Assembly: GCA_963930775.1 (NCBI GenBank)
Contig: OZ005696.1
Location: 124,001 to 188,000 of the forward strand
Reading direction: 5' to 3'
Length of the DNA stretch: 64,000 bases
DNA from: Cliona cf. orientalis
Taxonomy: Eukaryota > Porifera > Demospongiae > Clionaida > Clionaidae
Shown one piece after another: positions 39,528-64,000 of this stretch; the stretch's first letter is position 1; the number at the start of each line of letters is the position of its first letter. The translations under genes and the position numbers were made by a program. Under the pieces are notes generated by a model. It ran no database searches, was not told where the DNA came from, and saw only the letters and a program-made list of their open reading frames with translations.

Positions 39528-40395
39528 AAAGCGATACCCATGTGTTGATCACAGGTAATGATAATTAATGTATTTAAGTATAATATTAATTAGAACCAAT
39601 CTTATTTATTTTACCATTAAGGTTATTTATTGAACGCCCACTCTCCTAATACCTCATTTACCCCTTCCCCTCCCCCTCCCCCCAAGTATTCCTTCATCTA
39701 AATTAAATGAAACCCATCACTTCACTTATCATTATCATAATATCATGACATGTTTATAAATTATTTATATTATATATCACTATAGTATACTTTATTATGT
39801 TTGGCAGTCATAGTATATTTTTCGTAGAATGTGATATTGTACCGTTATTATGTAGCAATTATTGTCATAATATATCATCATCGCCACCTCAGCATAACAT
39901 TATACATGATAGTTAATTTTAGCAATTCATCTCTATATATGCAAGAACAGGTTATTTTTATGGGATTTCACGAAGTGTTTATATTTCTCAATCTGCCGTT
40001 TCTGTTATGGATGTTACAAACTGTCATGTCACTTTGTATTGTATACTTTTCAATCTAGTGTATTCACTGTATGTATAAATGTGCAAGCATAGCCAATTCC
40101 AAACTTAATAACTTTCAATAACCCAGTCTTTGTGAATTGAGTAACGCTGATGCAACTGAAAAAGGGAGCGAACACACGGAAATTTCACACACTGTTTTGC
40201 GTCCCCTCCTTTCCCCACCTGCCAGCGTTGCGTGTCTATAATTTATTCCCACATCTATCTCTCTCTCTCTCTCTCGGTTGCTTATCTTGTGTATACATCT
40301 GGAACCAGACTGCAAACATAAAAGACGAATGATTTTCACTTACGCAAGAGGGAAACACTTCAATGAAACATACACACTCGAGATATTCTCTCACG
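39528..40395. other. Intergenic, no gene seen
   Basis: AT-rich sequence with a CT microsatellite near 40257-40274. No feature beyond presumed 3' ends of the flanking genes. Confidence 0.6.
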
Positions 40396-42800: not shown

Positions 42801-42932
42801 TATCACCCAAATAGGTATAGGTCGTCGATCAAGCGCGCTAGTTCTAGTTCACGCCGCATTGAAGGCTTACATACGTACGCACGCAAGCACAAAATTGGTA
42901 ATGGTCGTCGATGTTTTTGGTCTGGAGGTCTG
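42801..42932. promoter_or_regulatory. Divergent promoter region of genes A and B
   Basis: 132 bp separate the two start codons, which point away from each other. The interval must hold both transcription starts. No TATA box is seen; it contains CG-bearing words such as AAGCGCGCTAG. Confidence 0.55.
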
Positions 42933-44688
42933 ATGGCTCGGATTCCTTCTCTCGACGTTGTGTATAGCTGGATCCCGGAGGAGAATCGTCAAAAACTAAA
43001 CCATGCCTTTCAGTCGGACTACAGATCCCTGGCACAGATCGCTGACAATATCCTGGAGTGGGACGGACCAGTGGGGGATGAGCTGACGCTGACTCACATA
43101 GAGAGACATGACATCAAGGCCGAGGATCCCTTCGACACCAGGCAACAGAGGTACACACGATATCGTCAGATAACTTGCACTATTTTTCTCAGTAGTTTAT
43201 TGTGCTTTTGTGTATGGGGGCGGCACTTTAATTCCCACCTATTAAACACCATTCTTGCCTGGACCCCTGGAATGATCGCAATCCTGTGCTTAGGGTCGTC
43301 ATTTATATTTTAGCAGAGCTCTCTCTTTCTCTGATGCTATTAATTAGCTCCTCTTGTGCAGACGAAAAGCTTTGCATCGCTGGCAGGAGAAGTTTGGATC
43401 AAACGCAACTTATCGCAACCTGATCATTGCCTTCCATAAAGCCGAGAAGATGGACTATGTGGAGGTCGTGTGTCGGCAGCTGGGAGGTGGGTCAACCCCT
43501 GTATTAAAGTGATAATAATAATTATTACTGAATTTTGTTGGGCTCTGCAGCTACAGGTAACTGTCCTGCCATACAAAGAAAAGGTGAGTAAAATTAAAGA
43601 AATGGTTGCATTGGTGGCTACTACTTTGGCGACCTTTACCATGCTTCCTTCTATCACATAATACCATAATATCCTAGACTCTGATCCGAGTCCAGGGAGT
43701 GTTGCATCACCACAACCCAGGCTTCCTCTCTCCTTCTCTGACTCACTCTCACCGATAGAGCTAGCTGACTGGCTCTCACAAGAACTGGTGGCAAAAGGGT
43801 TAAAATTAGAGGCATCCCATAGACAATCGCTACTAGGTGAACCGAATGATTCTGTTTAACTCATCATTGATTACTTTCTCTGTGAATTTTTTTTTTCTTT
43901 CGTACTATAGATGAAGATATCAATGGAAAGGCATTCCGAGAGCTAACAGATGATAACCTGAAGGAGCTTGGATTCAAGAAGATGGGAGCACGTATTAACA
44001 TCAGAGGAATCATCTCATCCATAGAAGTGCGTTGTAATGACAATAATATTATACTTTCCATAAGGTAGTGTTTGTTATGTGAATGCTCTGTTTTGTTTTA
44101 ATATTATGTAGACACCAATGGAAATACCACTGACTCCTTCCACACAGCAGCCGCCTGGTACAACAACAGACACCTTTGTTAGAGGTAGATGATTTAGTAA
44201 ATATTACCTCTCTCTGTGTGTCCCCCTTCCTCAATCCCTGTCTCTCTCCTTCCTTCTCTTCTCCATGTGCTACAGACCCCAGCCTCACTACCCAGGCGCT
44301 GGACGAAGCGTTGGAAAGCGTTGTCTACTGGTACACATTTGGAGTCAAATTGGGACTACCAAGCCACAAGCTCGACATGATACAGAAGGACCATCACGGT
44401 AATCTAATTAGTCCCACTAATAACAGGGGAACCCATCTTGATAATTTTAATCACAAGTGCTCGCCCCATGAAGGTGTTAAGAATCAGAAGGTGGCCTTGT
44501 ACAACATGTGGCTGGAGAGTGACATCCAAGCTTCCTGGAGTAAGCTCTGTGATGCTCTCTGGCTTGAAGACAAGAAGGTGCTAGCAACGCAACTCAGAGC
44601 GAAGTATGTCACTGGAAAGACCACCAGTCAAGGTCCGTAGTAGTCTTGGGAAAATTATTCTCCTCCTTTAGTAACATTATTATTTCCT

Positions 44689-44721
<33 letters not shown>

Positions 44722-45245
44722 AGCTAAGCAAAAATTAAATAAGGTGCATACCATACCGCACTAAAATTATAATATTACTTTTCCTTTAGAAGCTGGGGGG
44801 ACTAAAAATAGTTCAGAGGGAGCCTCACAGATGGCACAAGGTAAGGATGAAGATGAAGGAGGTGGCAATATTGTTGCGCATTTCTGCAGGCTCAGAGGTC
44901 ATGGACTCTGTACTCGCACACTGTTTGCATGGTTTGAGTGACGCTGAGGTCAGGAAAGTGGGCGTGGCTCTAGGTATCAGCAGTGACAGGATGGAAGGGA
45001 TGGGAGAGGGTCAAAGGTTAGCAGAGGCAGTTTCCCGGGAAGCTGGCGGCAATTGGAGCTGGAATGAGCTGATTCAATCGCTGGAGGGGGCGGGGCAGAG
45101 TGAACTAACAAAGAGAATCACAATTAATAAAAGTGAGTTATTAATTATTATTATTTTGTACTGTTGTTAACTATTTTTAACATTAAATTTTCTGGTAGAT
45201 AACATGGAGCAGCCACATGGACATACAAACACTGCTCAAACTTAA
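42933..45245 (+). CDS. Gene B: Death-SAM-Death-Death adaptor-like protein
   Basis: Eleven exons: 42933-43150, 43362-43486, 43551-43583, 43678-43836, 43911-44026, 44112-44184, 44276-44398, 44474-44632, 44790-44840, 44890-45132 and 45199-45245. They join in phase to 448 codons. The first two exons make a Death domain (LAQIADNILEWDGPVGDEL, then ALHRWQEKFGSNATYRNLI). Exons 4-5 make a SAM domain (LADWLSQELVAKGL, NGKAFRELTDDNLKELGF). Exons 7-8 make a second Death domain (FGVKLGLPSHKLDMIQKDH, ALYNMWLES, SWSKLCDALW). Exon 10 encodes a third helical Death-fold-like domain (VGVALGISSDRMEGM, SWNELIQSLEGAGQSEL). The start is the ATG whose product aligns with the N-termini of genes C, G, H and I. No enzyme domain is seen. 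Confidence 0.85.
44691..44720. repeat. Poly-C run of about 30
   Basis: Uninterrupted C run in intron 8 of gene B, just before the acceptor of the next exon. Similar shorter C runs occur near 13663-13680 and 17347-17361 before exons of DNAAF1. Confidence 0.9.
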
Positions 45246-45709
45246 CCTAATAATAGTGATAGTTGTGTACAGTCTGTTTTGTCCAATCATACAATAATTA
45301 TTATTATTATGGAGTGTTGTAATTTGCTAGTACAATTTCTTAATCGATTGCCCTACTTATTGGACACTTGATACTTGTATACATGACATTGTATATGTGT
45401 GGATATATAGAGGAGTAATTACATAATATTATATTATTGTCATGTACTTTTGAATTCAATAGCATCCAGCATGCAGCTTGGGGTTTGGTGTGTGTGTGTG
45501 TGTACTGTGTACTGTGTACATGCAGTGCATATGTGCATGGGTCCCAAAGCTGCATGGCTGCCGTTTGGAGGAAGTGTAAGGAATGATGTTATCAAAAACC
45601 ACAACTACATGATACAGAGATTATCCTACCAATGCAGCAGAGAAAAAGAAAAAGAAAACATGGTAGTACACAAAATACAGTCCATAATTTTGTTCTACAG
45701 ACAGGCACG
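45246..45709. other. Spacer between convergent genes B and C
   Basis: Contains a short GT repeat near 45488-45502 and AT-rich sequence. No gene is seen. Confidence 0.55.
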
Positions 45710-47490
45710 CTACTGTACAGGAAGGTTACCTCGGACATTGCTAGTTGTTGCTAAGAGAGCTGTTTTGACCTCCTCTGATAGCTGCCCCAGCTCGGAGTCA
45801 CTGAGCAGCCTGATCAATCCACTCCATTTCTTTGGGTACTTATTCTTGTTTGGTAGGTTATTGGCATTTTCCAACCAGCGACCAAACACATCAGTCACTC
45901 TCTCATCATCAGAGAAGTGATTTCGTCGAATGCTCTCAACTTCTCCTGGTTCAAATCCGAGGCTTTCAGCCACATCTCTCCACTTCGAAGCAGCTCTTTT
46001 GTACACTCTGATATTCTTTCTCTCACCAGTACCCGAGTCTGTCCACTCCAGCCTGCTCACAAAATGGTGCCTTACTTCAAATCTATCGAAATCAGCTGCA
46101 AAATAAGAGACTGTTATAATACTCATTTAACTGTGAAATTATTAGGCCACACAAACTTGAATGTTAGTTTCTCGTCACCTTCCGCGTCAGTTTCTACCTA
46201 CCGCATCTGCCTTCATTATTGCCTTGAAACACCAGCCACACCTCTTTTTTGCTAATTATTTGGGCGGTTCCAGGAAACCACACCCTCAAAATGCCATAAT
46301 AATGAATAATGAATAATGACCGCCCGCCCGCATAGAAATATAAAAACAGGTGGACGAGAAACTAATAATGTAGTTTGATTGGCCTTACATACCATTGTGT
46401 AGTGTTTGAGTGGAGGAAGATGGTGTGTGAGTGGGAGGCTGACTAGCTGCACCGTTGCCGCCAGTTACAGGTGTCACTCCAGCAGTGGCAGATCCCTTCA
46501 ACTATGAGAAAATGTTGTAAATCAAGTGGGTTTTTATCCAGAGAGCTATATACTACATAAAATACCTGCTCAACTCTTTCTTCGATTGCCATCTGGAATC
46601 CAAATGAGAAGTCAAACTTCTTAGTTAATGTTGAAATGTTGTTCAGCAGCTGTTTCCCATTTATCTTTGCTTCTACAGTTGCATATAAAAATAGCGATGG
46701 TAACTCGGTTTTCAACCAATAAGTAAAACTCACTGCAAAGTTTTTCAACATCATCACCATAGTCAGCTCCATACTCCTGCCTTAGCCATCGAGCTAGATC
46801 ACTAAGGCCCAGCGATTCTGAGAAATCTACCCAATTCAGTTAGAGCATAGACATCTATGATTAGAGTACATGTACACGTGTACACTGAGGGACACACCAA
46901 TATGGGCTGTGGTGGTAGTGGTGGCACTGGCTGAATGAGCATGTGACGCGATGGTCGGTGTAGTGGAACCCGGCACTCCCTGGCCATGGTCACCTGACAA
47001 GGCACGTGAATGTGCATTTTTATATTAAACACATAATACTTACCAGTATCATCCTTTAAGAGGTCACAGACAAACTCAGCATAGTCCACTTTACCGGCTT
47101 GGAGGAAGATTTGGATCAGAGCCCTGTACGTGGCTGCTTTTCCAAGACCTGATTTCCACTTATTCAATGCCTCTCTCCTTAATTCATGATTAGCAACACG
47201 TTGGTCCAAAAGATTATTATTGCTATATCATAATCATTATTATCTTCAGTGTACCTCTGAAGCGAAGGTTTTTTTTCCATAATGTCAGCTCTGTCTGCGT
47301 GAGTCAGTCCTAGGTAGTCAGCTATTTCGCTCTCCCAGTCGATCATCTGTGCCGCGATCTTCCCAAGGTGCTGCGGTATCGTGCGACCTTGAATATCTTT
47401 GTTTTCAAAATCGATATCTCTCTCCACCTTCCATCGACTGCTCGCTGGTATCGAGACGATTAGCTCTTCCATCTTTCTTTGAACGGCCAT
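45710..47490 (-). CDS. Gene C: Death-SAM-Death protein
   Basis: Exons 47490-47255, 47177-47044, 46993-46898, 46826-46734, 46672-46566, 46501-46393 and 46095-45710 join in phase to 386 codons. Order: N-terminal Death domain over exons 1-2 (IPQHLGKIAAQMIDWESEIA, EALNKWKSGLGKAATYRAL), Ser/Thr/Ala-rich linker, SAM over two exons (LSDLARWLRQEYGADYGDD, KINGKQLLNNI), second linker, C-terminal Death domain (WRDVAESLGFEPGEVESI, VFGRWLE, KWSGLIRLLSDSELGQL). Most junctions are phase 1, which lets exons be exchanged or lost without frame damage. The C-terminal exon is a close relative of the last exon of gene D. Confidence 0.88.
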
Positions 47491-47812
47491 TGCCGCGTTT
47501 ATAAATATCGCTCCGAGTCCTATATACTGTGACGATAGTGCGCGACGGTGGGTGTGGCAAACAGTGAGGTCGATCGAGGGTAGCTCCCCACTTAAAAACC
47601 ACAAGCTGCGATAAGCATGTTAATTAACAATTATTCGCTGCCATCATTTCACATAGTATGTATGATTATTAAATATTTCATTTGGAAGGAATTTTGAAGA
47701 GGTTATCAAAGAAATTATGCTACCAATATGTACTAAATACAGCAGAGAAGATGATATCACATAAGTACATGTTCACTATACACCACGTACTGACATGCTA
47801 CCATTATTAAAG
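47491..47812. other. Spacer between genes C and D
   Basis: About 320 bp with no feature seen apart from the presumed promoter of C and the 3' end of D. Confidence 0.5.
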
Positions 47813-49297
47813 TTAACTCAATACAGCTCCTGAGGAGAGAGCTGTTTTGACCTCCTCTGACAGCTGCCCCAACTCGGAGTCATTGAGCAGCCTGATCAAA
47901 CCACTCCATTTCTTTGGGTATTTTTTGCTGTTTGGTAAGTTCTTTGCATCGTCGAACCAGCGACCAAACACATCAGTCACCCTCTCATCATCAGAGAAGT
48001 GATTCCGTCGAATACTTTCTATTTCTCCTGGTTCTAATCCGAGGTTTGTAGCCACATTACTCCATCTCCAAGCCACCTTTTTGTACACACTGACGTTCTT
48101 TCTCTCACCAGTACCCAAGTCTGTCCACTCCAGCCTGCTCATTAAATGGGACTTCACTTCAAATCTATCGAACTCAGCTACATAATAAAGTAAATCACTA
48201 GATCATGCTGACTATGCAAAAGTAATAGTATTGTAATAGTATGCTCATTTTGATGCATTGGTACATACATAGGCATAGAACAGAATTACGCATGATTCTA
48301 TGGCTCACCATAATCAGAAGGTGCTACGCCAGCTGGTGCACGTGGTGCTGCTATCAAAAAAAAATAAGGAACAATATTTATAATTGAGCTCTAGCTAATC
48401 ACAAAGATGAACTCACATCTTGGAGGAGCAGTGAATTTCTCAGCAAGAATACCATCACTCATATATGCGAAACCCGCTTGTGGTGAGCTGACAGCTTTAG
48501 CGAGCTTCTCCTGTGTTAATAACCCTTGCCTCAAGCACTCTTTGATCATCTCCGTGAAGATTGGGCTCGGCTTATAGCTATTAGATTTCTCTATCGCATC
48601 AATGGTACCTGCTGGCAGATCTAGTCCTAGGCCAATGTTGTAGTACCCAGAGCGTGCATCCCATACAAGGTCTAAAACTTGCTGGAGGTGATTCGGAGAA
48701 AGCTTATCTGTGTAATATTAAAAATATGGGATAGATCACAGTACTCCGCCGATGGACTAGTAGTACATGTACCTGTGATCCCAAGTGTTTTGGAAGTAGG
48801 AGTCGGTTCTGCCTGAGCTTTTGGTTCTGCTGTGACGTCACCAGTAGTGTTGCTTGATGGTGTTCGCTGAGAGGCACGACCATCACCCATAGCTCCATTA
48901 CTCTGCTTCAGCTATATATAAATTACAATGGGAGGGGGAGATTTAGTAGACGGCCTATAGATCAGAGACATGGCATGTCTCTGATCATGGGCCTGGATTC
49001 AGCAAACTTGTCCTTATTATGCACCTCTTTGGCCTTCTTCTTTACGAGTCTTTTAAAAGCAAATGACAAATTCAATTCTTTCGCAAGCTCTTCATCTTCT
49101 GCGAACTCAAGGAAGAGTTCTCCATTTATCTTAGCGCCTGTAGGGTATATAATAAATAGTTACGTAAAATTTGTGGTTCTAGCGCATTGAATCATCACCG
49201 ACTCACTTTCAAGTTTGTTGATATCGTCACGGTACGACTCGCCGTATACCTCGAGAAGCCATTTGGCAAGTTCAGGTGGTTCGAGCGAGGACGCCAT
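47813..49297 (-). CDS. Gene D: SAM-Death-like-Death protein
   Basis: Exons 49297-49207, 49137-49025, 48911-48773, 48707-48417, 48350-48309 and 48177-47813 join in phase to 346 codons. The SAM domain comes first (MASSLEPPELAKWLLEVYGE, then INGELFLEFAEDEELAKEL). After a polar linker comes a Death-fold domain in one exon (VLDLVWDARSGYYNIGLGLD, MIKECLRQGLLTQEKLAKAV), then a typical Death domain (WSNVATNLGLEPGEIESI, KWSGLIRLLNDSELGQL). Its 5' half is duplicated as the 5' half of gene F, where the internal Death-fold exon has shrunk to 39 bp. Confidence 0.85.
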
Positions 49298-49389: not shown

Positions 49390-50007
49390 AGCACCAGCAT
49401 CAACATAATGACTTCATAATGTTTATAAAACAAAAATTAATTTAATCTAATTGTAGGGAATTGCCTCATTTACTTGTTCAGCTAGCACTATCAAATTACA
49501 TTCCTCAAGTATGTCCACCAGTAGCTTCAGAGTGGCTGGTTGTCTTCCCATCCCTCTCAGCCACGTCTGCATCATATCTCTGCAACAGGCATTTGGATCG
49601 CCACGATGCCTTTGGTCGATAGTCTGCATTGTATTGCCACTGGGGTCAAAGTCCAAGTTGGTGGCAAAGTCTCGCCAGTGGGGAGCTACTTGGTCGATGA
49701 TGTTGACCCTTCCACCAGCCCGAAGCTTCAGACTGCCAAGGAGACGCAACGTCAACTTTCCTTCTAGATAAAAATTTAATAAGATACATAGCTACTAAGT
49801 AGCAGCTAGCTAGCCAGAGGATGGAAGCCTAGCTACATACCTTTCGAAGGTCGTTGCATAGGTGGAGAGATATCACCATCATCACTCACAACTCGGTTCA
49901 CTTTCCTCGGACTTTGAAGCATCTTAGGTGGAGAGGGTGGTCCTAGGATCGTGCAGCTTGTGTTTCCTGCAGTGCATGCCATGGTAGAATATTATCAATC
50001 AAACAGT

Positions 50008-50077
50008 TGTCCCCAGGCTCCTCATTGTTGCATGCCTCTAGCCTTTCAGCTTGCAATGAGGAGCCTGGGGACAAGGC
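50008..50077. repeat. Intronic inverted repeat (hairpin), copy in gene E
   Basis: TTGTCCCCAGGCTCCTCATTG and its mirror CAATGAGGAGCCTGGGGACAA enclose a short loop. Equivalent hairpins sit in the same intron of genes F and G. Confidence 0.85.
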
Positions 50078-52209
50078 TAGCTAGTTATTGGTTTAAAGGC
50101 TGGTTACCATAGAGATCCTTGAGCAGCTGTATGTCCATGTCGGATGGTTTATCTGCCAGTGGAATCAAGCTGCGCGAGTGAACACCAAAAAGAGCTTCTG
50201 CCACGTTTGTTGGTAGAACTCCTGAGTCACGGTCTTTTTCCACTTTGCTCTGATCACTGTATCCGTTCTTCAGCCACTGCTTCTTGAACCTATTGTATTT
50301 GATGGTCACATTCCAGGCTAGCACTATCACGCACCCATGCTGGGAATATCTTACCAATAGTGCATGATGCTATCGGGGTCATAGGCAGTGCATTTGCCTG
50401 TCTTGAACTGCGAGTCACTGTCCCAGTTTTTTCTGAAGGCTTCCGGATAGTTAGTCAACCCCAGGTCTTTCTTCATCTCTGCAATGTCAATATAAGGCCT
50501 GATGTGCTTCCAGAAGTCAGAGCGCTGGTGTTCGTGCCCTAGACCGAGGGCATGGCCAAACTCATGGATTACTAAATGCTTCTTGTAGTTGTCACCAGAT
50601 ACATTAAGATCCAGCCACATTGTTGGTTGGTCGTACTTTGCTTTGGTTGCCTTCTTACCAATCATCGTTTCCGTCCTCCTATTACCTATAATAATAATAT
50701 TCAGATTTGACTCAAATTAGCTAGCTCATGTTACTTACTGTTGAATTTGATGCGAATATCAGAGGGAGCACTTGGCTGATCCACCCGAGTGAATTTCGGA
50801 ATAGTGTTACCTCCTCGAAGACTCCATTCATTGGCCCAGCTCATGATGTTCCCCACATTCATTCCACTCCCACCGTAGGTCCACTGAGCTGGGATGTCAT
50901 TCAGGAACTTCACTGCAAGCTCCTTCTTACCCCAAAGAGCATTCTTTGGCACCCACGCTGATAAGACATCACCATGGGCATGGCCCTCATCAGTCTCCAT
51001 GGCTTCATCAGGCTCAACAGTGCCTGAGCGCATGTCTTCTTCATCCAAATCAGCAGTGGTACAAAGAGGAATATGCTGTACAATATTATGTGCAGAATTA
51101 ATGCAATAATACAGTTTTTTCCTAAAACTACTCACCATTGTAGCTTCTGTTTGGGGGAGGCTGGGATTATCATTGTTAGCAGGTGTGGGGACAGGGGCAG
51201 GTGCACTGGAGCTCTCCTTTAACTACGTAAAATTAAAATTAATATGAGTGTCAGTGTAATGAAGAAAAAGCTCCAGTGTGGAGCTCTCTTTTATCAATGC
51301 AAAATTAAATATGAGTGTCACTGTCTGTAGTGCTATCAACCTGTTGAACTTTGTTGGTGATCAGCAAAAGAAAGTCCCAACTCTTTCAACCACTCTTTTT
51401 CATCTGGCAATCCAAGAAACAGCTCTCCATTGATCAAAGCTCCTGTGATATTGTAAAAGGTCTATACATTCATGCCAGCAGGAATAGCTCTAGTCATGTA
51501 TAATAATATTGTATGCTTGTACCCAGGCTCCCCAGTCTGCAAATCAGGGAGCCCCATTTTCTGACATTGGAAATCAGGCTGGGAACGAGGCTGTTGTGTC
51601 ACCTACCTTTCACTTTGCTGATGTCATTCTCATAAGAACGCCCATATTCATGGAGCAACCATTGTTCCAATTGGTCGGGTGTCATGCTGGGTGAAAACCC
51701 CGGTGGAGTCCCTCCATCCCCTATAAGTGAATCACAAAAATAATGACGTGTGCAATCACATTATCTCCATTGTAAACCACAAAATCTAGGAAACATGCAG
51801 GCACATGTAGCTATAACATGTGTGCATGCATGTATAATGTACCATACAATTTTATATTATTATGTCCATACATAACTGCAGTGCATTTTTGCATACACAG
51901 AACAGAACAGATATATAGGAAGTATTGTGTGCTAGTAGTATACACACATAAGTGTTGTAAACTGCCGCATGTGCCATGTACTAAACACTGCACGCAAACA
52001 AAATCTCAGCATGGTATCAATTTCTGAGTGATAACATGAATTCACTATCTCACCAGCATTAGTGCTTGAGTTGCCAGCTGCTTGAGCTTGTTGTCCTACT
52101 GACCGCGGAGCAGAGGTGGCTGTACTCTCAGGCAGACAGCCACTACCACCAGTAGTCACTGCCCCACTACCTCCGGATACAAGTGGTACAGGAACAGCTA
52201 GATCAGGTA

Positions 52210-53140
52210 TTAAAGAAGATGTGCAACAAAATTCTAATAAAAGATGAATGGTATACCAGTGGTGCATGCGTAGAAAGTTGTTCTAATAACTCAGCTATCT
52301 TACTACGTCTCATCTGCTTTAGCAACAATACTCCGTATGACGTAGCTATAGTATGATTGTGCTTCCAACGTCACTGATATTAAATTTTATACACTATTTA
52401 TATTAGAAACTAGCGGTACACTTCGTGCATAAACATCCTCGCTCAGCTCAAATAAGCGGAAATTATCTAAATAAGTGAAAATGGCCCAGCATTATACATG
52501 CATGTACGTACTCCTGACCACGTGCATGTAGAGGGGGTGTGTTTTGCGCTAACTTAGTTAGATACTCCATAGTCAGGTATTACGATTATAAAAGTTTCAA
52601 CTGAAAGACACTGGTGACAGCACTGAAGCTAAGAGTTAGCGAATAGGTAGCCCACAAGGTCTAATATCGCTGATGTAAGCAAACGATCCAGAGATCTCAA
52701 ACCAACAGAAGACGATCATTTTGAATGTCGCGAAAAAGACTTTTGGGGGTGATTCAGTTCAGCGGTGCTGTAGCCATGTACATTCTGTGAGAGTTTCACA
52801 AGATAGAAATATATGCCAGTTTGACGTTTACTGCTACTGAAAAGAAATCAGTATCGAATTGTTCGAAGAAAGGCGAGGTTTTAAAGTCAACGTACCATTT
52901 TATGGTCCGTTGAACGAAATCAGCAAAACTATGGATCTGTGACTACCAAGGTTCTTCGTGAATGTAGCTGACCATGTTTGAAATCCTTAGAGCTGGCGAT
53001 GGAGCTTGATTCACCGTGGCGAGCAAGAACGAAATTTTAGAGGGCACGCGAAAAGTAGCCATTGAAGCCATACGATCTCGGCCAAGTCCGAGTAGAGGAC
53101 CTCGCTTCGCTCGGAATAATAGTTGGTATATTATAGGTCT
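52210..53140. other. Unrelated DNA inside decayed gene E
   Basis: This stretch has no counterpart between the same exons of gene G. No inverted ends or open frame could be recognised, so its origin is unclear. Confidence 0.5.
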
Positions 53141-53633
53141 AACCTTGACTTTCAGGCTGAGGAGGTGACTCAGTTATCTCAGCTCCTTCCTTCAAGATCT
53201 ACAACGCTAGCTCTTAGCACATACAGTTCAGTCTTCTCGCTTGGACAAAGACCGCCGTCAGAGCTCTTTAGGTGGCCGCACTGCCCAGATTCGACCTCCA
53301 TCTGCTCAAAGCTTTCCTCCTGCATGGCGCATGGCATCAACTTTATTCCATAGTAAGTTTGAGAGCTGGTTTATGTAATTTTACAGATAGTCGTACCTCT
53401 GAAGTGAAGGTTTCCGGGGATTTGTCGACTTTCCATCGATTACTCTCTGGTATCGAGGCAATCAAATCTGCCAGCCTTCTTTGAACCATTGCTGTTTGTT
53501 TTCACTCTTGCTACATACGGTGGTATAATGCGAGAGAGAGGGTGTGGCAATTGCGTAAAACAATGAATAATACATAAAACTTCTATATTGCACTCTTGCT
53601 ACAAACAGTATAATTATAAAGGAGAAAAAAATT

Positions 53634-55927
53634 TTAGTAGTGAAGTTCTGCTGCCGTTCTTCCCAGTCCAGCCTTGTCCACTGCTGTCTTCAAACTCTCG
53701 AGTGAGGCACGCTCTTTGCTTCCCCTCTTGTCCCCAGGCTCCCACTGCAACCACGCCACCAGCATGGCACTGAACCAAGTGCCCGGAGCTCCCATAAAGT
53801 GAACAGGGCTCTCTTGAATGAGCCTCAGTTCTGGCTGATGAAAGCCCAAGTACGTACCAATCTCCTTCCACTTTGGTGCGTGAATCCCCAGCTGCTCAAT
53901 CAAACTTTGGTGAGAGAGAACACCAGCTACATAATATTATTATTAAAGATTAATTAGTTATGACGATCTCTCATAGAAATTACATTATTGGAGTGACATT
54001 ACCATCATCACTCTCGACTCGGTTCGAATTTTGAAGTGTTTCAGGCGGAGAGGGTGGTCCAAGGATCGTGCAGCTTGTGTTTCCTACACATACCATCGTA
54101 GAACATTATTATCAATCAAACAGTATAGCTAAACATTAGTTAGCCAGGCTCCTCATTGTTGCATGCCTCTAGCCTTTCAGCTTGCAGTGAGGAACCTGGG
54201 GAAAAGGATAGCTAGATACTGGTTTAATGGCTGGTTACCATAGAGATCCTTGAGCAGCTGTATGTCCATATCGGATGGTTTGTCTGCCAATGGAATTGAG
54301 TTGTGCAAGTGAACACCAAGAAGAGCTTCTGCCACGTTCTTTGATAGCTCTCCTGATTTACGGTCTCTCTCCACTTTGCTCTGATCACTGTATCCATTCT
54401 TCAACCATTCCTTTTTGAACCTAAAGCATTTGACGGTCATATTAATTCCAGGCTATCACACACCAATGCTGGGAATATCTTACCAATAGTGCATGACGCT
54501 ATAGGGGTCATAGGCAGTGCATTTGCCTGCCTTGAACTGCGAGTCACTGTCCCAGTTTTTTCTGAAGGCATCCGGATTGTTAGTCAACCCCAGATCCCTC
54601 CTCATCTGTGCAATGTCAACATAAGGCCTGATGTGCTTCCAGAAGTCAGAGCGCTGGTGTTCGTGCCCTAGACCGAGGGCGTGGCCAAATTCGTGGATTA
54701 CTAAATGCTTCTTGTATTTATCACCCGATACATTAAGATCCAGCCACATTGTTGGTTGGTTGTACTTTTCTTTGGTTGCCTTCATCCCAATAATTGATCT
54801 CGGCTTCCCATCATCTACAATAGCATTAAATATTCATATTAATTTTGATACTAGCTCGTGTTACTTACTTGTGAATTTGATGCGAATATCAGAGAGAGCA
54901 CTTGGCTCTTCCACCCGAGTAAATTTCGGAATAGTGCCACCTCCTCGAAGACTCCATTCATTGGCCCAGCTCATGATGTTCCCCACATTCATTCCACTCC
55001 CACCGTAGGTCCACTGAGCTGGGATGTTATTCAGAAACTTCACTGCAAGCTCTTTCTTATGATTACCCCAAAGAGCATTCTTTGGCACCCACGCTGATAA
55101 GACATCGCCATAGGCATGGCCTTCATCGGTCTCCATGGCTTCATCAGGTTCAACAGTGCCTGAGCGTATGTCTTCTTCATCCAAATCAGCAGTGGAACAC
55201 AGAGGTGTAATTTCTGTTTGGGGGAGGCTGGTGTTACCACTTGGTGCTGCTGCTGCTAATGATGAAATTTGTAAGTATATTAAATAGACCAATTATATTA
55301 AAATATGAAGTTACATCTTGGAACTTCCTGGAGGTGATTCGGAGAAAGCTTATCTTTATAATACAACATTATTATAATATGGGATAGGTCACAGTACTCT
55401 GTCGATGGACTAGTAGTACATGTACCTGTGGTCCCAAGTGATTTGGAAGTAGGAGTCGGTTCTGCTTGAGGTTTTGGTTCTGCTGTGACGTCACCAGTAG
55501 TGTTGCTTGATGGTGTTCGCTGAGAGGCACGACCATCACCCATAGCTCCATTACTCTGCTTCAGCTATACGAATACAGGGGGGGGGGGGTGGATTTAATA
55601 GACAGCCTATATGGCATATCTCTGATCATGCCTAGATTCAGCAAACTTATGCACCTCTTTGGCCTTCTTCTTTACGAGTCTTTTAAAAGCAAAAGACAAA
55701 TTCAATTCTTTCGCAAGATCTTCATCTTCTGCGAACTCAAGAAAGAGTTCTCCATTTATCTTAGCGCCTGTAGGGCATAATAATTTGTTACATAAAATTT
55801 GTGGTTCTAACATAGGCGCAATCATCATCGATTCACTTTCAATTTTGTTGATATCGTCACGGTACGACTCGCCGTATACCTTGAGAAGCCATTTGGCAAG
55901 CTCAGGTGGTTCGAGCGAGAACGCCAT
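53634..55927 (-). CDS. Gene F: SAM-astacin-like metalloprotease-Death protein
   Basis: Exons 55927-55837, 55767-55655, 55564-55426, 55353-55315, 55255-54869, 54814-54484, 54420-54239, 54083-54003 and 53926-53634 join in phase to 551 codons. The N-terminal SAM (MAFSLEPPELAKWLLKVYGE) and linker match gene D. A 39 bp exon follows that keeps only the two ends of gene D's Death-fold exon. The metzincin domain has IPAQWTYGGSGMNVGNIM, a zinc site HEFGHALGLGHEHQRSD (three His ligands, catalytic Glu) and Met-turn SVMHYW. The last exon is a Death domain (IGTYLGFHQPELRLIQ, AWLQWEPGDK). No signal peptide or prodomain is seen, which is unusual for astacins. The frame is open upstream to about 56035, so a longer N-terminus is possible. 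Confidence 0.85.
54144..54204. repeat. Intronic inverted repeat (hairpin), copy in gene F
   Basis: CCAGGCTCCTCATTG at left faces CAGTGAGGAACCTGGGG at right, a slightly decayed version of the gene E hairpin in the matching intron. Confidence 0.75.
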
Positions 55928-56021
55928 CTTCAGTTCGATCTCTTGGTCAAGCTTGCTCTCCCAGAACAGTGGTATATATGTTGATGTGGGAGGCCGAGGG
56001 TGCGCCCCCTCACATATTATT

Positions 56022-56035
56022 ATGCGCATGCGCAT
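56022..56035. promoter_or_regulatory. NRF1-like palindrome upstream of gene F
   Basis: ATGCGCATGCGCAT, 95 bp upstream of the gene F ATG, identical to the gene D promoter site. Confidence 0.45.
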
Positions 56036-56071
56036 AGCACCAGCGTCAACATAATGACTTCATAATCAAAA

Positions 56072-59000
56072 CTAATTGTAGGGAATTGCCTCATTTACTT
56101 GTTCAGCTAGAACTATCAAATTACATTCCTCAAGTATGTCCACCAGTAGCTTCAGAGTGGCTGGTTGCCTTCCCCTCCCTTGCAGCCACATCTGCATCAT
56201 CTCTCTGCAGCATGCATTTGGATCACCACGATTCCTTTGGTCAATAATTTGCATTGTATTGCCACTGGGGTCAAAGTCCAAGTTGGTGGCAAAGTCTCGC
56301 CAGTGGGGAGCTACTTGGTCGATGATGTTGACCCTTCCACCAGCCCGAAGCTTCAGACTGCCAAGGAGACGCAACGTCAACTTTCCTTCTAGATAAAAAT
56401 TTAATAATTATTATACAAAGATAGCTATATTCTAAGTAGCAGCTAGCTAGCTAGAGGATGGAAGCCTAGCTACATACCTTTCGAAGGTCGTTGCATAGGT
56501 GGAGGGTCACCACCATCATCACTCACAACTCGGTTCACTTTCCTCGGATTTTGAAGCATCTTAGGTGGAGGGGGCGGTCCTAGGATCGTGCAACTTGTGT
56601 TTCCTGCGGTGGCATGCCATGGTAGAATACTATCAATCAAACAGTATAACTAAAAGTTAGTAGCCTTGTCCCCAGGCTCCTCATTGTTAGTCTTTCAGCT
56701 TGCAATGAGCCTGGAGACAAGGCTAGCTAGCTATTAGTTTAAAGGCTGGTTACCATAGAGATCCTTGAGCAGCTGTATGTCCATATCGGATGGTTTGTCT
56801 GCCAGTGGAATCAAGCTGCGCGAGTGAACGCCGAGAAGAGCTTCTGCCACGTTCATTGGTAGAACTCCCGAGTCACGGTCTCTCTCCACTTTGCTCTGAT
56901 CACTGTATCCGTTCTTTAGCCACTGCTTCTTGAACCTATTGCATTTGACGGTCATATTAATTCCAGGCTATCACACACCAATGCTGGGAATATCTTACCA
57001 ATAGTGCATGATGCTATAGGGGTCATAGGCAGTGCATTTGCCTGTCTTGAACTGCGAGTCACTGTCCCAGTTTTTTCTGAAGGCCTCCGGATAGTTAGTC
57101 AATCCCAGGTCTTTCTTCATCTCTGCAATGTCAATATAAGGCCTGATGTGCTTCCAGAAGTCAGAGCGCTGGTGTTCGTGCCCTAGACCGAGGGCGTGGC
57201 CAAACTCATGGATTACTAAATGTTTCTTGTAATTGTCACCAGATACATTCAGATCCAGCCACATTGTTGGTTGGTCATACTTTGCTTTGGTTGCCTTCTT
57301 ACCAATCATCGTTTCCGTCCTCCTATTACCTATAATGGTTGATAATTAAAATATTCACATTTGACTCAAATTAGCTAGCTCGTGTTACTTACTGTTGAAC
57401 TCGATGCGAATATCAGAGGGAGAACTTGGCCCTTCCACCCGAGTGAACTTAGGAATAGTGCCACCTCCTCGAAGACTCCATTCATTGGCCCAGCTCATGA
57501 TGTTCCCCACATTCATTCCACTCCCACCATAGGTCCACTGAGCTGGAATGTTATTCAGAAACTTCACTGCAAGCTCCTTCTTACCCCAAAGAGCATTCTT
57601 TGGCACCCATGCTGATAAGACATCACCATAGGCATGATCCTCATCAGTCTCCATGGCTTCATCATCAGGCTCAACAGTGCCCGAGCGCATGTCTCCTTCA
57701 TCCCAATTAGCAGTGGTACAAAGAGGAATAATCTGCTGTATTATAATATTATGTGCTGAATTAATGCAATAACACAGTTTTTTCCCCTAAAACTACTCAC
57801 CATTGTAGCTTCTGTTTGGGGGAGGCTGGGAGTATCATTGTTAGCTGGTGTGGGGACAGGGGCAGGTGCACTGGAGTTCTCCTTTAACTAATATTATGCA
57901 AAATGTGAGTGTCAATGTAACTAATGAAAGAAACAGCATTGGAGTGGTACCAACTTGTTTAACTTTTCTGGTGATCAATCTCCTGAAAGCGCCAGAAAGT
58001 TTTAACTCTTCCAGCCACTCCTTGTCATCTGGCAACCCAAGAAAGAGCTCTCCATTGATCAAGTCACCTGTGATATCATGAGAGATCTCTATTCACACTA
58101 GCAGAGCCCATTTTTCAGAAGCATGTCACCCATGGTGGTCTGGGAACAAGGCTGTATTGCATTATAGCTAGTCACCTACCTCTCACTTTGCTGATGTCAT
58201 TCTCATAGGAACGCCCATATTCATGGAGCAACCATTGTTCCAATTGGTGGGGTTCCATGCTGGGTGAAAACCGTGGTGGAGTCCCTCCATTCCCTAAGAA
58301 GTGAAATCATAAAATGACGTGTGCAATCACATTATCTCCACCATAAACCACAGAAACAGGCACATGTATGGCTATAATATGTGTACATGCATGTATAATG
58401 TACTGTACAATTTTATATTTATTATTATACAGTACTACTGTCCATACATAACTGCATGCAGTACATTTTTGCGTACACAGAACAGAACAGATGTGTAGGA
58501 AGTACATTGTGTGCTAGTAGTATACACACATAAGTGTTGTAAACTGCTGCAGGTGTCATACACTAATATAAACAGTGCACACAAACAAGTCTCAGCATGG
58601 TTTCAATTTCTATAATATTATATAATAAGTGATAACATGAATTCATTATCTCACCAACATTAGTGCTTGAGTTGCCAGCTGCTTGAGCTTGCTGTCCTAC
58701 TGACCGTGGAGCAGAGGTGGCTGTATTCTCAGGCAGACGGCCACCACCACCAGTAGTCGCTGCCCCACTACCTCCGGATACAAGGAGTACAGGAGCAGCT
58801 ACATCAGGTAAAGATGTACATACTACATGTACAACAAATCTAATAACCAGAAGGTGTAGTAGTTACTCTGATCACTAATTCGGATGTCTACTCTACTATA
58901 AATATAGTCTCAGCTGCTTTTATATTAATGTACTGTAACGCAGGTCAAACTATTTTATATCAAAGGTTGATTCTAACCTGGAGTTGCCGCAGTAGTTCCC

Positions 59001-59476
59001 GGCTGAGTGGGTACAGCTCCTTCCCTCAAGATCTCTACAACACTCTCAGCACAACGCATTCTGCCAGCTCTGACGAATACCTCCATCAGAGCTCTGTAGG
59101 TGGCCGCACTTCCCAGGCCCGACTTCCAGATGCTCAGCGCTTCTCTCCTACACGGATTAATTTAAAATTACAATTTAGGCTACATAGTACTAAATTTTAT
59201 TTGATAGCTTTGATATTCGATTTTATGGTCGTACCTCTGAAGCGAAGGTTTCCGGGGATATCTTTCAATGATATCAGCTCTGTCTGCGCGAGTCAGTCCT
59301 AGATTATCGGCTATTTCGCCTTCCCAGTCGGTCATATCTGACGCGATCCTGCCGAGGTGCTGTGGTATTATGCGGCCTCGAACATCTGTGTTTTCAAAAT
59401 CGATCTCTCTGTCGACCTTCCATCGATTGCTCTCTGGTATCGAGGCAATCAAATCTGGCAGCCTTCTTTGAGCCAT
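56072..59476 (-). CDS. Gene G: Death-SAM-astacin-like metalloprotease-Death protein (complete)
   Basis: Exons 59476-59235, 59147-58978, 58798-58655, 58293-58180, 58067-57955, 57887-57801, 57735-57393, 57329-56999, 56935-56754, 56603-56478 and 56388-56072 join in phase to 722 codons. Order: Death domain (residues 1-137), Ser/Gly-rich linker, SAM (about 190-260), acidic linker, metzincin domain (about 315-515) with HEFGHALGLGHEHQRSD near residue 445 and SIMHYW at its end, a basic extension (WFKKQWLKNGYSDQSKVERD), linker and C-terminal Death domain (WRDFATNLDFD, LKLLVDILEECNLIVLAEQV). Zinc ligands, catalytic Glu and Met-turn Tyr are all present. The start is a Death-domain Met with no signal peptide. 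I infer an intracellular protease controlled by Death-fold assembly; the substrate is unknown. Confidence 0.88.
56664..56722. repeat. Intronic inverted repeat (hairpin), copy in gene G
   Basis: CTTGTCCCCAGGCTCCTCAT at left faces ATGAGCCTGGAGACAAGG at right, in the same intron as in genes E and F, with a shorter loop. Confidence 0.8.
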
Positions 59477-59643
59477 TGCGGTCTATATTCTGTTGATCAT
59501 CACTCTTGCTATGATGGTATGTTTATATTGCGAGAGCGAGAGGGTGTGGCAATAATTGCGCAAAAATAATGAATAATGCATGAAGAAGGTGTAGGAATGC
59601 ACAAAATACGTATCTATTGTACTCAAGAAAAGAGAAAGAAAAT

Positions 59644-61531
59644 TCAGTAGTGAAGTTCTGCTGCTGTTCTTCCCAGTCCAGCCCTGTCCACTGCTGTCTT
59701 TAAACTCTCGAGTGAGGCACGTTCTTTGCTTCCTCTCTTATCCCCAGGCTCCCACTGCAGCCACGCCTCCAGCATTGCACTGAACCAAGTTCCCGGAGCT
59801 CCCATCAATAGAGCAGGGCTAGTCTCAATGAGTCTCAGTTCTGGCTGATGAAAGCCCAAGTACGTACCAATCTCCTTCCACTTTGGTGCGTGAATCCCCA
59901 GCTGCTCAATCAAACTTTGGTGAGAGAGTGTGGCAGCTATGTTATAAGATGACTTAATATGCTCATTCAACTGCAGTTTTTAACAATTATTATTAAAATT
60001 TCATACCATTATGTTGTGTTTGAGTGGAGGAAGATGGTGTGTGCTGAGAGGGAGGCAGACTAGCTGCACCGTTGCCGCCAGGTGGAGGTGTCACTCCGGC
60101 AGTGGCAGGTCCCTTCAACTTTCAAATTATTTGAGAAGAGTGATCTTTTGTATACATACTACGGCTAGCTACTGCATACATACCTGCCCGGCTCTTTCTT
60201 CGATCTCCTCCAGGAATCCAGGTGAGATATCCAACTTATATTTATTATTTAATGTTGAAATGTTGTTCAAGAGCCGTTTCCCGTTAAACTTCGCTTCTAC
60301 AAAAAGTTATAGTATAGCTACTAGTAAATGGTAATTCGGTAATTCGGTGAGAGCAGTTGGTTTGAGACCAATAACTTAGTAGAACTTACTGCAAAGCTTT
60401 TCAACATCATCAGCATAATCAGCTCCATACTCCTGCCTTAGCCACCGAGCTAGATCATTAGGACCCAGCGATTCTGAGAAATCTATATATACCCAGTTCA
60501 ATTAGAGCATAGACATCTATGGTTAGAGTACATGTACACATGCACACTGGGGACACACCAATTTGGGCAGCTGTGGTGGTAGTGGTGGCACTGGCTGACT
60601 GAGCATGTGACACGGTGGTCGGTGTAGTGGAACCCGGCACTCCATGGTCACCTGACACGGCACGTGAATGTGCATTAATTTTTTATATTAAACACATAAT
60701 ACCTACCAGTATCGTCCTTTAAGAGATCACAGACAAACTCAGCATAGTCCACTTTACCAGCAGAGGCGGCTGCACTTTCAGGCAGATGGCCACTACCACC
60801 AGTAGTCACTGCCCCACTACCTCCGGATCCAAGTGGTACAGGAGCAGCTACGTCAGGTAAAGATGTACATGTACAACAAATCTAATATTAATAAGCAGAA
60901 GGTGTAGTAGTTACTCTGATCACTAATTCGGATGTCTACTCTACTATAAATATAGTCTCAGCTGCTTTTATATTAATGTACTGTAACGCAGGTCAAACTA
61001 TTTTATATTAAAGGTTGGTTCTAACCTGGAGTTGCCGCAGTAGTTCCTGGCTGAGTGGGTACAGCTCCTTCCCTCAAGATCTCTGCAACGCTCTCAGCAC
61101 AACGCATTCTGCCAGCTCTGATGAATACCTCCATCAGAGCTCTGTAGGTGGCCGCACTTCCCAGGCCCGACTTCCATATGCTCAACGCTTCTCTCCTACA
61201 AGGATTAATTATTTAAGATTACAGTTTTAGGCTACATAGTACTCATTTGATAGCTTGTTTAATAAATTCGATTTTTATGGTCGTACCTCTGAAGCGAAGG
61301 TTTCCGGGGATATCTTTCAATGATATCAGCTCTGTCTGCGCGAGTCAGTCCTAGATTGTCGGCTATCGTGCCTTCCCAGTCGGTCATATCTGACGCGATC
61401 CTGCCGAGGTGCTGTGGTATTATGCGGCCTCGAACATCTGTGTTTTCAAAATCGATCTCTTTGTCGACCTTCCATCGATTGCTCTCTGGTATCGAGGCAA
61501 TCAGATTTGCCATCTTTCTTTGAACAGCCAT
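59644..61531 (-). CDS. Gene H: Death-SAM-Death protein with a chimeric exon
   Basis: Exons 61531-61287, 61195-61026, 60847-60707, 60651-60559, 60482-60390, 60296-60184, 60118-60007 and 59936-59644 join in phase to 419 codons. The first two exons and the start of the third are of the gene G type (Death domain, then Ser/Gly linker SGGSGAVTTGGSG). At about 60759-60761 the third exon switches in frame to the end of the second Death exon of the C/I type (GKVDYAEFVCDLLKDDT). All later exons follow the C/I plan: Ser/Thr/Ala linker, SAM, linker, Death domain. The result is an intact recombinant gene without a protease. Confidence 0.87.
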
Positions 61532-61693
61532 CGCAGTCTTCTGTTTATCATCAGCTTTTCGAGCTTTTCTATGGTGGTATAATTTTATATTGCGAGAAAG
61601 AGGGTGTGGCAATAATTGCGCAACAAAAAAATGAATGAATATGCATGAAGGTGGGTGTAGAGTGCTATTGCTACAAACAATGAGAAAGAAATT

Positions 61694-63199
61694 TTAGTAG
61701 TGAAGTTCTGCTGCTGTTCTTCCCAGTCCAACCTTGTCCACTGCTGTCTTTAAACTCTCAAGTGAGGCACGCTCTTTGCTTCCTCTCTTGTCCCCAGGCT
61801 CCCACTGCAGCCACGCCTCCAGCATGGCACTGAACCAAGTGCCTGGAGCTCCCATCAATAGAACAGGGCTAGTCTCAATGAGTCTCAGTTCTGGTTGATG
61901 AAAGCCCAAGTACGTACCAATCTCCTTCCACTTCGGTGCGTGAATCCCCAGCTGCTCAATCAAACTTTGGTGAGAGAGTGCAGTAGCTATATTATAAGAT
62001 GACTTACGCTCATTCAACTGTAGTTTTAACAATTATTACATACCATTATGTTGTGTTTGAGTGGAGGAAGGTGGTGTGTGTTGAGTGGGAGGCCGACTAG
62101 CTGCACTGTTGCCGCCAGTTGGAGGTGTCACTCCGGCAGTGGCAGGTCCCTTCAACTTTCAAATTATTTGAGAAGAGTGATCTTTTTTGTATACTACGGC
62201 TAGCTACTGCATACGTACTTGCCCAGCTCTTTCTTCAATCTCCTCCAGGAATCCAACTGAAAGCTCCAACTTATATTTACTATTTAATGCTGAAATATTG
62301 TTCAAGAGCCGTTTCCCGTTTATCTTCGCTTCTACAAAAATAAACGGTAATTCGGTAATTTGGTGAGAGCAGTTAGTTGGTGACCAACAAGATTTAGTAG
62401 AACTTACTGCAAAGCTTTTCAACATCATCACCATAATCAGCTCCATACTCCTGCCTTAGCCAGTGAGCTAGATCACTAGGGCCCAGCGATTCTGAGAAAT
62501 CTACACAGTTCAGTTAGATCATAGACATCTATGGTTAGAGTACATGTACATGCACACCAGGGAACATACCAATGGCAGCTGTGGTGGTAGTGGTGGCGCT
62601 GGCTGACTGAGCATGTGACACGGTGGTCGGTGTAGTGGAATCCACTCCCAGATCACCTGACACGGCACGTGTGCACAACATGAATGTACAGTATTAATCA
62701 CATTTAATATGATAATGCCTTTAATACTTACATTACGATAATTTATTATGGTGCTTACCACTGTTGTCCTTGAACAGATCACAGACAAACTCAGCACAGT
62801 CCACTTTACCAGCTTGGAAGAAGATTTGGATCAGAGCCCTGTACGTGGCTGCTTTTCCAAGACCTGATTTCCACCTGCTCAATGCCTCTCTCCTTCGCAC
62901 ATATTATGCTACAAACTATCTCATCATAATAATAGGTTTATAGCAAAAAAATACCTTTGTAATTTTGGTTTATCTCGATATCTCTCGACAATATCGTTCC
63001 TGTCAGTGTCAGTCAGGCCAAGATGGTCCGCCACGACATCTTGCCGATCCAATATTACGTCAGCGATCCTACCTAGGTGTTTAGGTATTATTAGACCTCT
63101 GCCATCCCTGTGCTCGAAGTCGATCTCTTCATCCAGCTTCCATCGAACGGCTGCAGGGACGGTGGCTATGATATCCGATAAAGTGCGAGCGCGAGACAT
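61694..63199 (-). CDS. Gene I: Death-SAM-Death protein
   Basis: Exons 63199-62955, 62892-62759, 62656-62570, 62500-62408, 62331-62219, 62155-62044 and 61986-61694 join in phase to 358 codons. The N-terminal Death domain (IPKHLGRIADVILDRQD, ALSRWKSGLGKAATYRAL) is followed by a Thr/Ala-rich linker, SAM (LSGL-type first half, KINGKRLLNNIS second half), Pro/Ser linker and a C-terminal Death domain nearly identical to those of F and H (IGTYLGFHQPELRLIETS). Another in-frame ATG at 63211 would add four residues. The start codon lies only 68 bp from that of the oppositely oriented TIR gene. Confidence 0.87.
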
Positions 63200-63267
63200 C
63201 TTCGCTGCCACATATGTGTGGGCGTGGTTCAGCCAGTACGTTGATTATGTAGGCGGGATTGGAAAAC
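63200..63267. promoter_or_regulatory. Divergent promoter of gene I and the TIR gene
   Basis: 68 bp separate the two start codons. The interval contains GTGGGCGTGG and GTAGGCGGGA words and must include or overlap both promoters. Confidence 0.5.
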
Positions 63268-63822
63268 ATGGCTGAAACGAACAAGGAACTTTTTATCAGC
63301 TATGGCCGCGAGCCGGAAACGGTCAATTTCGTGAGGTTACTCAAACGTGACCTGGAAAAGAATGGGTAAGTTTCCGGCCTAGATTGTATTACAAGTAATA
63401 GTACAAGCACTTGAATGCTTGCTTGTACAAAAACCACAACACAATTGATTAGAATTTGCGCACATTCCCATCATAATCGTACGTATGTAGGCTGACAATA
63501 TGGCTGGATGCGGAGGACATCAGCGCTGGGTGTGACTGGTACAGCGCTATTGGTCAAGGCCTGGAGAACTGTAAGGGCATCATAGCTGTCATTACCAACA
63601 AGTACATCAACTCCCACTACTGCAAGAGCGAACTCTACACAGCAAACAACGACAAGAAGCACATCTTTCCGATTATCTTTGAGGACGTCGACTTCACCTC
63701 GAGTGCGGCAGCCAAGGGAGTGAAGTACATCATTTCTGGTATCAACTGGACAATGTTTCGGCCCGCCATTGATGATTATCACACCTCCCTTATCAGGCTC
63801 TGCCAGGGAATGAAGGAACAAG
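63268..63822 (+). CDS. TIR-domain protein, 5' part (continues past the window)
   Basis: Two exons, 63268-63365 and 63491-63822, join in phase to about 143 codons. The product is a TIR domain from its first residues: ELFISYGREPETVNFVRLL (box 1 type, Phe-Ile-Ser-Tyr), TIWLDAEDISAGCDWYSAI, GIIAVITNKYINSHYCKSEL and HIFPIIFEDVDF. The Ser-x-Tyr-Cys-Lys-Ser-Glu segment places a Glu where TIR NADases such as SARM1 have their catalytic Glu, so enzymatic activity is possible but not shown. No signal peptide or membrane segment precedes it. A further exon may begin near 63897 (AYVDKNDASHPCP), but I cannot confirm it. The gene has a divergent promoter shared with gene I. Confidence 0.85.
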
Positions 63823-64000
63823 GTAAGCATAACTAAATCAATGATTTTTTTAAGCATGATTGACTGACTTGTCCCTCATATCCTTATCTGGATGAAGCTT
63901 ATGTTGACAAAAACGATGCCAGTCATCCATGCCCTATTTGGCCCATTGGTGGTAATAAGTATAACACACTGCATGCTTGTGGTTTTATTGGGTGTTGAGC

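Follow-up and report, generated by a model that had tools for sequence, protein, structure and literature searches.

Predicted sponge proteins that carry Death and SAM domains and a metzincin-type protease on one chain

Animal Death-fold scaffolds drive cysteine peptidases and kinases, and in the initiator caspases and the paracaspase MALT1 a Death-fold assembly module and a C14 cysteine peptidase are carried on one cytosolic chain. Here we analyzed two genes, G and F, in a 64,000-nucleotide stretch of DNA from the sponge Cliona cf. orientalis (contig OZ005696.1, positions 124,001 to 188,000 of the forward strand; hereafter the window), whose predicted products resemble initiator caspases and MALT1 in having a Death-fold module and a protease on one, here predicted, cytosolic chain, but differ from them in that a zinc metzincin takes the place of the C14 cysteine peptidase fold.

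The animal astacins (M12A; astacin, meprin, BMP1/tolloid) are described in an astacin review, whose main text does not contain the word 'death', as extracellular enzymes with a signal peptide, a prodomain and two or three disulfides (PMC9848320). The F/G family, in contrast, has no conserved disulfides, the predicted N-termini of F and G are not signal-like, and the fusion to Death and SAM domains is a feature of the sponge family. Myroilysin, a bacterial M12A metallopeptidase (PDB 5GWD/5ZJK/5CZW), likewise lacks the Death and SAM domains of the sponge proteins; its activation is described in the same text as a cysteine switch (PMC9848320), and the sponge family shows no conserved switch cysteine. 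The nearest precedent for the fusion is found in the main text of a paper on Amphimedon, where Death/TRADD-N expansions are sponge lineage-specific and join Death-like N-termini to varied C-terminal domains, caspase included, but are centred on TRADD-N (PMC8195603). The words 'astacin' and 'metzincin' each appear there a single time, among the references, and the only passage with 'metalloprotease' deals with bacterial inactive zincin-like domains. Metallopeptidase domains are mentioned elsewhere as rare members of the set of bacterial effector domains (PMC7159879). A literature search whose reach excluded preprints and most subscription papers brought up no paper whose title or abstract reports a fusion of Death and astacin domains.

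Genes G and F lie on the minus strand, the ATG of F 144 bp past the stop of G, together with a third copy, gene E (window coordinates):

56072-59476, minus strand: gene G, Death-SAM-metzincin-Death, 11 exons, 722 amino acids; ATG 59476, stop 56072
59476-59235, 59147-58978, 58798-58655, 58293-58180, minus strand: gene G exons 1-4
58067-57955, 57887-57801, 57735-57393, 57329-56999, minus strand: gene G exons 5-8
56935-56754, 56603-56478, 56388-56072, minus strand: gene G exons 9-11
58978-59476, minus strand: gene G, N-terminal Death domain, encoded by exons 1-2, at the start Met (25.3 bits against a Pfam Death cut-off of 22.6; 1.6e-5 alone)
57955-58293, minus strand: gene G exons 4-5, SAM-like domain (family profile A2, paralogue L048)
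56754-57735, minus strand: gene G exons 7-9, acidic linker plus the catalytic domain of the metzincin
57160-57210, minus strand: gene G zinc site, HEFGHALGLGHEHQRSD
57001-57015, minus strand: gene G Met-turn, SIMHY(W)
56072-56388, minus strand: gene G, C-terminal Death domain, encoded by exon 11 (Pfam Death 8.9e-8 alone)
53634-55927, minus strand: gene F, SAM-metzincin-Death, 8 exons, 538 amino acids; ATG 55927, stop 53634
55927-55837, 55767-55655, 55564-55426, 55255-54869, minus strand: gene F exons 1-4
54814-54484, 54420-54239, 54083-54003, 53926-53634, minus strand: gene F exons 5-8
54869-55255, minus strand: gene F exon 4, which encodes the linker together with the protease N-lobe
54645-54695, minus strand: gene F zinc site, HEFGHALGLGHEHQRSD
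54486-54500, minus strand: gene F Met-turn, SVMHY(W)
53634-53926, minus strand: gene F exon 8, C-terminal Death domain (Pfam Death 0.0089, under the cut-off)
49447-53489, minus strand: gene E, third copy, partly decayed (by eye)

Minus-strand translation and in silico splicing yielded frames that are open throughout in both G and F, with consistent phases and GT-AG introns. The 11 exons and 722 amino acids that an earlier note on this DNA had given for G were reproduced by splicing at these sites. The same note had placed the protease landmarks of both genes in one frame with Death and SAM domains; the landmarks are intact and Death and protease do share one predicted chain, but a single frame is obtained only after splicing. 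At the level of the gene models, the fusion of Death and SAM-like domains to a metzincin is confirmed. Because one exon of gene F holds both the linker and the protease N-lobe, the linker, which is exon 6 in G, is tied to the protease. At exon 5 of G, use of a neighboring gtacca donor would cause a frameshift and terminate translation after SAM, so that a short Death-SAM isoform of G is possible. In gene E, as judged by eye, the N-terminal Death exon is internally deleted and interrupted by a stop in its second exon, the SAM exon is frame-shifted, and open frames remain in the protease and C-terminal Death exons. By eye we also noted inverted repeats resembling miniature inverted-repeat transposable elements, formed by GCCTTGTCCCCAGGCTCCTCATT and its complement with small differences, at about 56640-56730 and 49990-50080, within the same intron of G and E.

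The whole of G matches Pfam Death (PF00531) at 4.6e-13 in two stretches, one of them at the predicted start Met, which bears out the earlier statement that G begins directly with a Death domain. For the C-terminal Death domain of F, a profile that includes it (A3) matched the RIPK1 Death domain at 4e-4, and its AlphaFold model, built from a 10-row alignment, is a five-helix bundle with a mean pLDDT (predicted local distance difference test) of 77.6, whose best Foldseek matches are Death domains with template-modelling scores up to 0.72 and probability 1.00, none of them at E<=0.001. SAM is assigned in the window copies because paralogue L048 exceeds the Pfam cut-offs for SAM_1 (PF00536, 4.5e-7) and SAM_2 (PF07647, 5e-7) and because the family profile A2 matches SAM structures, the best at 1.4e-4. 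The profile search of the 722-residue protein proposed in the earlier note thus recovered Death and Astacin, while SAM stayed under the Pfam threshold.

The protease domain exceeds the curated cut-off of Pfam Astacin (PF01400) in both G (4.5e-8) and F (2.9e-8), and it has the metzincin/astacin fold. A search of the sponge's own genome at the protein level gave 43 exon matches, and the 18 loci that yielded three catalytic exon pieces were aligned; for C8:9.231M and C8:9.234M the first of these pieces is short or doubtful. The zinc-site motif HEFGHxLGLxHEHQR, which agrees with the M12A motif HExxHxxGxxHE, is kept in 18/18 paralogues and the MHYW Met-turn in 17/18, the exception being the C4 copy, which has MHNW and an in-frame stop; in G and F the W codon of S(I/V)MHYW is interrupted by an intron. 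By both sequence and fold, however, the catalytic domain is nearer to bacterial myroilysin than to the animal astacins, which qualifies the earlier label 'astacin-like'. PADLOC defence models gave 0 matches for G at E<=0.1, NCBIfam gave matches far under the cut-off only, among them LegP and a glucuronidase-named model, and a viral structure library returned distant metalloproteases (best E 2.0e-5). A cysteine switch, in the form of a PLCTTAD-like Cys 5' of the catalytic domain, was considered and rejected, since it is missing in several divergent paralogues: by eye, the C8 cluster copies, L042 and L050 have an upstream Cys, and L043, L047, L048 and L052 have none at the switch position.

A second intact copy, L039 (C8:315600-320700), lies about 133 kb from G and has 11 exons with identical phases, 714 amino acids and no stop. 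It is identical to G at 665 of 712 aligned residues. Its exons differ in length from those of G by -3, -3, -21 and +3, the -21 depending on the acceptor chosen in L039, where the sequence differs, and among the introns 1/8 non-zero length differences is a multiple of three. The ratio of nonsynonymous to synonymous substitution rates (dN/dS) between G and L039 is 0.26 overall (bootstrap 0.18-0.39); by part it is 0.08 in the protease, 0.19 in the N-terminal Death domain, 0.31 in SAM and 0.27 in the C-terminal Death domain, and in the linkers, with few sites, 4.4, 0.59 and 0.82. The protease, Death and SAM parts are under purifying selection, and on the whole, shared phases, in-frame indels and constraint appear as the pattern of a translated modular protein.

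Death or SAM exons stand on the protease strand at 12/18 loci. Same-strand Death exons were found at 10/18 (G, F, L039, L042, L047, L048 and L052, as well as E, where they are damaged, C4:6.70M, where they are decayed, and L043, where they are weak) and same-strand SAM exons at 9/18 (G, F, L039, L042, L047, L048, L049, L050 and, damaged, E); protease matches at C2:9.93M, C3:2.0M, C5:9.806M and C5:9.821M stand outside this count. The SAM-protease-Death order is seen again at L042 and L047 (both on chromosome 1) and at L048 (chromosome 5). Death models seeded with window sequences only, and chosen after a likeness to some loci had been noticed, matched the sense strand of 6/14 fetched stretches (L039, L042, L043, L047, L048, L052) and 0/1158 antisense, 0/655 classical-astacin-locus and 0/15091 prokaryote-locus open reading frames. 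With the intact second copy L039, these matches indicate that the association goes beyond coincidence. The SAM model matches to L039, L042, L047, L048, L049 and L050 are circular or nearly so, those sequences or close copies of them being in the model. At sense positions 39-480 and 2242-2520, L048 has two additional elements 5' of the protease copy, a SAM pair and a Death-like exon; the protein there may exceed F and G in length, or a neighboring gene may end there.

Death exons are frequent in this genome, with 1292 first-look candidates, of which 150 were scored, and at least 150 over the cut-off. Within the window, further Death-like exons, recognized by likeness, are dense on the minus strand at 40238-49000 and 59640-63250 (e.g. 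45710-46126 and 47813-48202), and the first Death exon of G recurs at about 47.3, 61.3 and 63.0 kb. Death exons 93-94% identical to the last exon of G were also found at G000:C8:443557-443871 and C8:639904-640218, and the own-genome protease search gave no match near either, which suggests that the C-terminal Death module may also be copied without the protease. TIR-like open frames were seen by eye beside protease copies, on the plus strand, at 63477-63836 of the window and at 890-1370 of L040. Elsewhere in the window, the minus strand at 6314-8912 carries an 866-codon open frame that has, by eye, the look of a pogo/CENP-B type transposase.

The Death-type proteases form one clade with a support of 0.994 in FastTree (17 rows) and an SH-aLRT (Shimodaira-Hasegawa-like approximate likelihood ratio test) value of 96 in a second tree. 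FastTree groups this clade with 73 prokaryote rows among the matches listed (0.932), rows that were picked by motif patterns, and an approximately unbiased (AU) test did not reject a single clade of all sponge rows (p 0.389). The decayed C4 copy is left out of the trees, and the classical locus L001 was dropped because its stretch is without the motif; the C5_9.844M exon B row has a wrong first letter in both trees and is trimmed by three residues in A4. With a motif-drawn prokaryote sample and this AU result, the trees are compatible both with a bacterial myroilysin-like origin by horizontal transfer and with shared descent with the classical astacins of the sponge.

Neither G nor F has a hydrophobic predicted N-terminus, the maximal 11-residue hydropathy within the first 35 residues being 0.6 in G and 0.45 in F; judged by hydropathy only, and on predicted N-termini, the earlier claim that the two lack a signal peptide holds. 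A search, limited to phase-0 splices to exon 7 over a distance of 1200 bp, for a hydrophobic ATG exon able to join the protease exon directly gave one candidate in G, one in L040 and none in E or L039, where 0.36-0.48 per copy are expected. A hidden signal-peptide exon as a conserved feature was rejected on this count of two candidates in four copies. The catalytic domain has one Cys in G, F, E and two near copies, and no Cys column is common to the 18 paralogues; the classical astacins of the same genome have 4-5 Cys in 7/7 cases. Because Death/SAM modules and an intact metzincin site share one predicted chain with a non-hydrophobic N-terminus, the proteases of F and G are most likely intracellular, as had been suggested before, and the Death and SAM modules would be a stronger argument for the cytosol than the missing disulfides.

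We propose, with moderate confidence that this is the case, that F and G belong to a sponge family in which a cytosolic metzincin-type endopeptidase is the effector of a Death/SAM assembly protein and is licensed by clustering or positioning on or within a signalling complex. The Death domains, at both ends in G, and SAM would form polymers or bind to an upstream sensor or adaptor that has a Death domain; assembly would concentrate and position the protease, which would then cut a substrate or its own linkers, and the fast-evolving linkers may be tethers or cleavage sites. The working mode would resemble that of MALT1 or an initiator caspase, with zinc replacing the catalytic cysteine. Since at least 150 Death exons exceed the cut-off, many partners would be possible, and since the genome keeps ordinary C14 peptidase exons (47 matches), the family would not be a caspase replacement. 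More tentatively, and short of being probable, the family could be a zinc counterpart of the initiator caspases: a myroilysin-like metzincin moved inside the sponge cell and placed under the control of a Death/SAM signalosome, giving a multi-copy set of proteases for immunity or cell death whose activation depends on clustering and whose chemistry is independent of caspases.

Several points weigh against the proposal of a clustering-licensed protease. The models of F and G, and hence their proteins, are predicted from genomic sequence alone (Cliona orientalis RNA-seq is listed as public, run ERR13669944, in PMC12639293), and everything past a predicted cytosolic chain with an intact metzincin, clustering activation and latency included, we infer. 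The weakest splice site of G is the exon 5 donor, gttggtac, a donor that L039 has as well. Pfam SAM has no match at E<=1 in the window proteins. Single exons of some pairs of copies show weak constraint, on few changes in each case: dN/dS is 0.67 when the N-terminal Death exon of G is compared with the one at 61.5 kb, and 1.12 between L039 and E in the first SAM exon. At 6/18 loci (C8:247k, C8:921k, C8:937k and three at C8:9.23M) no Death or SAM exon was seen in the 5-7.5 kb that were read (L040, L044, L045, L046, L051; L040 partly masked), and as Death exons are so common in the genome a single neighboring one means little. Up to 6 Cys occur in some divergent sponge copies, and many prokaryote relatives with signal-like N-termini (e.g. 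L053-L056) are also without Cys in the domain, so that the absence of disulfides is no proof of a cytosolic location.

Gene E and the C4 copy are moreover decayed, and L040 (C8:247k) looks truncated, as would be expected if the copies were mostly relics and F and G little expressed or functionless. We consider this improbable in view of the intact G and L039, the constraint between them, strongest in the protease, and the zinc site kept at every aligned locus. It is very improbable, too, that the fusion is an artefact of the gene models, the protease exons forming a separate secreted-protease gene and the Death/SAM exons belonging to neighbors in the dense Death cluster. Such an error would be helped by the abundance of Death exons and by models drawn from genomic sequence, and a short hydrophobic ATG exon candidate does lie 204 bp upstream of exon 7 of G; this candidate, however, is missing from E and L039 and candidates, among phase-0 splices to exon 7 within 1200 bp, are about as frequent as expected, the linker and protease of F share an exon, phases, in-frame indels and constraint are common to G and L039, and the order SAM, protease, Death is found on other chromosomes. 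A rather unlikely but more serious alternative is that the Death and SAM domains serve targeting only, placing near its substrates, within a signalling complex, a protease that is constitutively active or switched by another kind of event, for example cleavage, a redox signal or a metal signal. Its active site is intact, some prokaryote relatives of similar size have no obvious signal peptide (e.g. L062, L065), and domains and linkers alone cannot separate activation from placement; nothing direct speaks against this alternative. A conserved cysteine switch is lacking, and no search was aimed at an astacin-type prodomain with its FXGD aspartate switch.

The joining of a normally secreted type of protease to Death and SAM domains suggests that there may be a second chemistry for a switch of the caspase kind, in an animal that branched off early and whose Death repertoire is very large. 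If the proposal of clustering-licensed proteolysis is true, proteolysis activated by proximity would not be bound to the caspase fold, and astacins could no longer be described as extracellular only.
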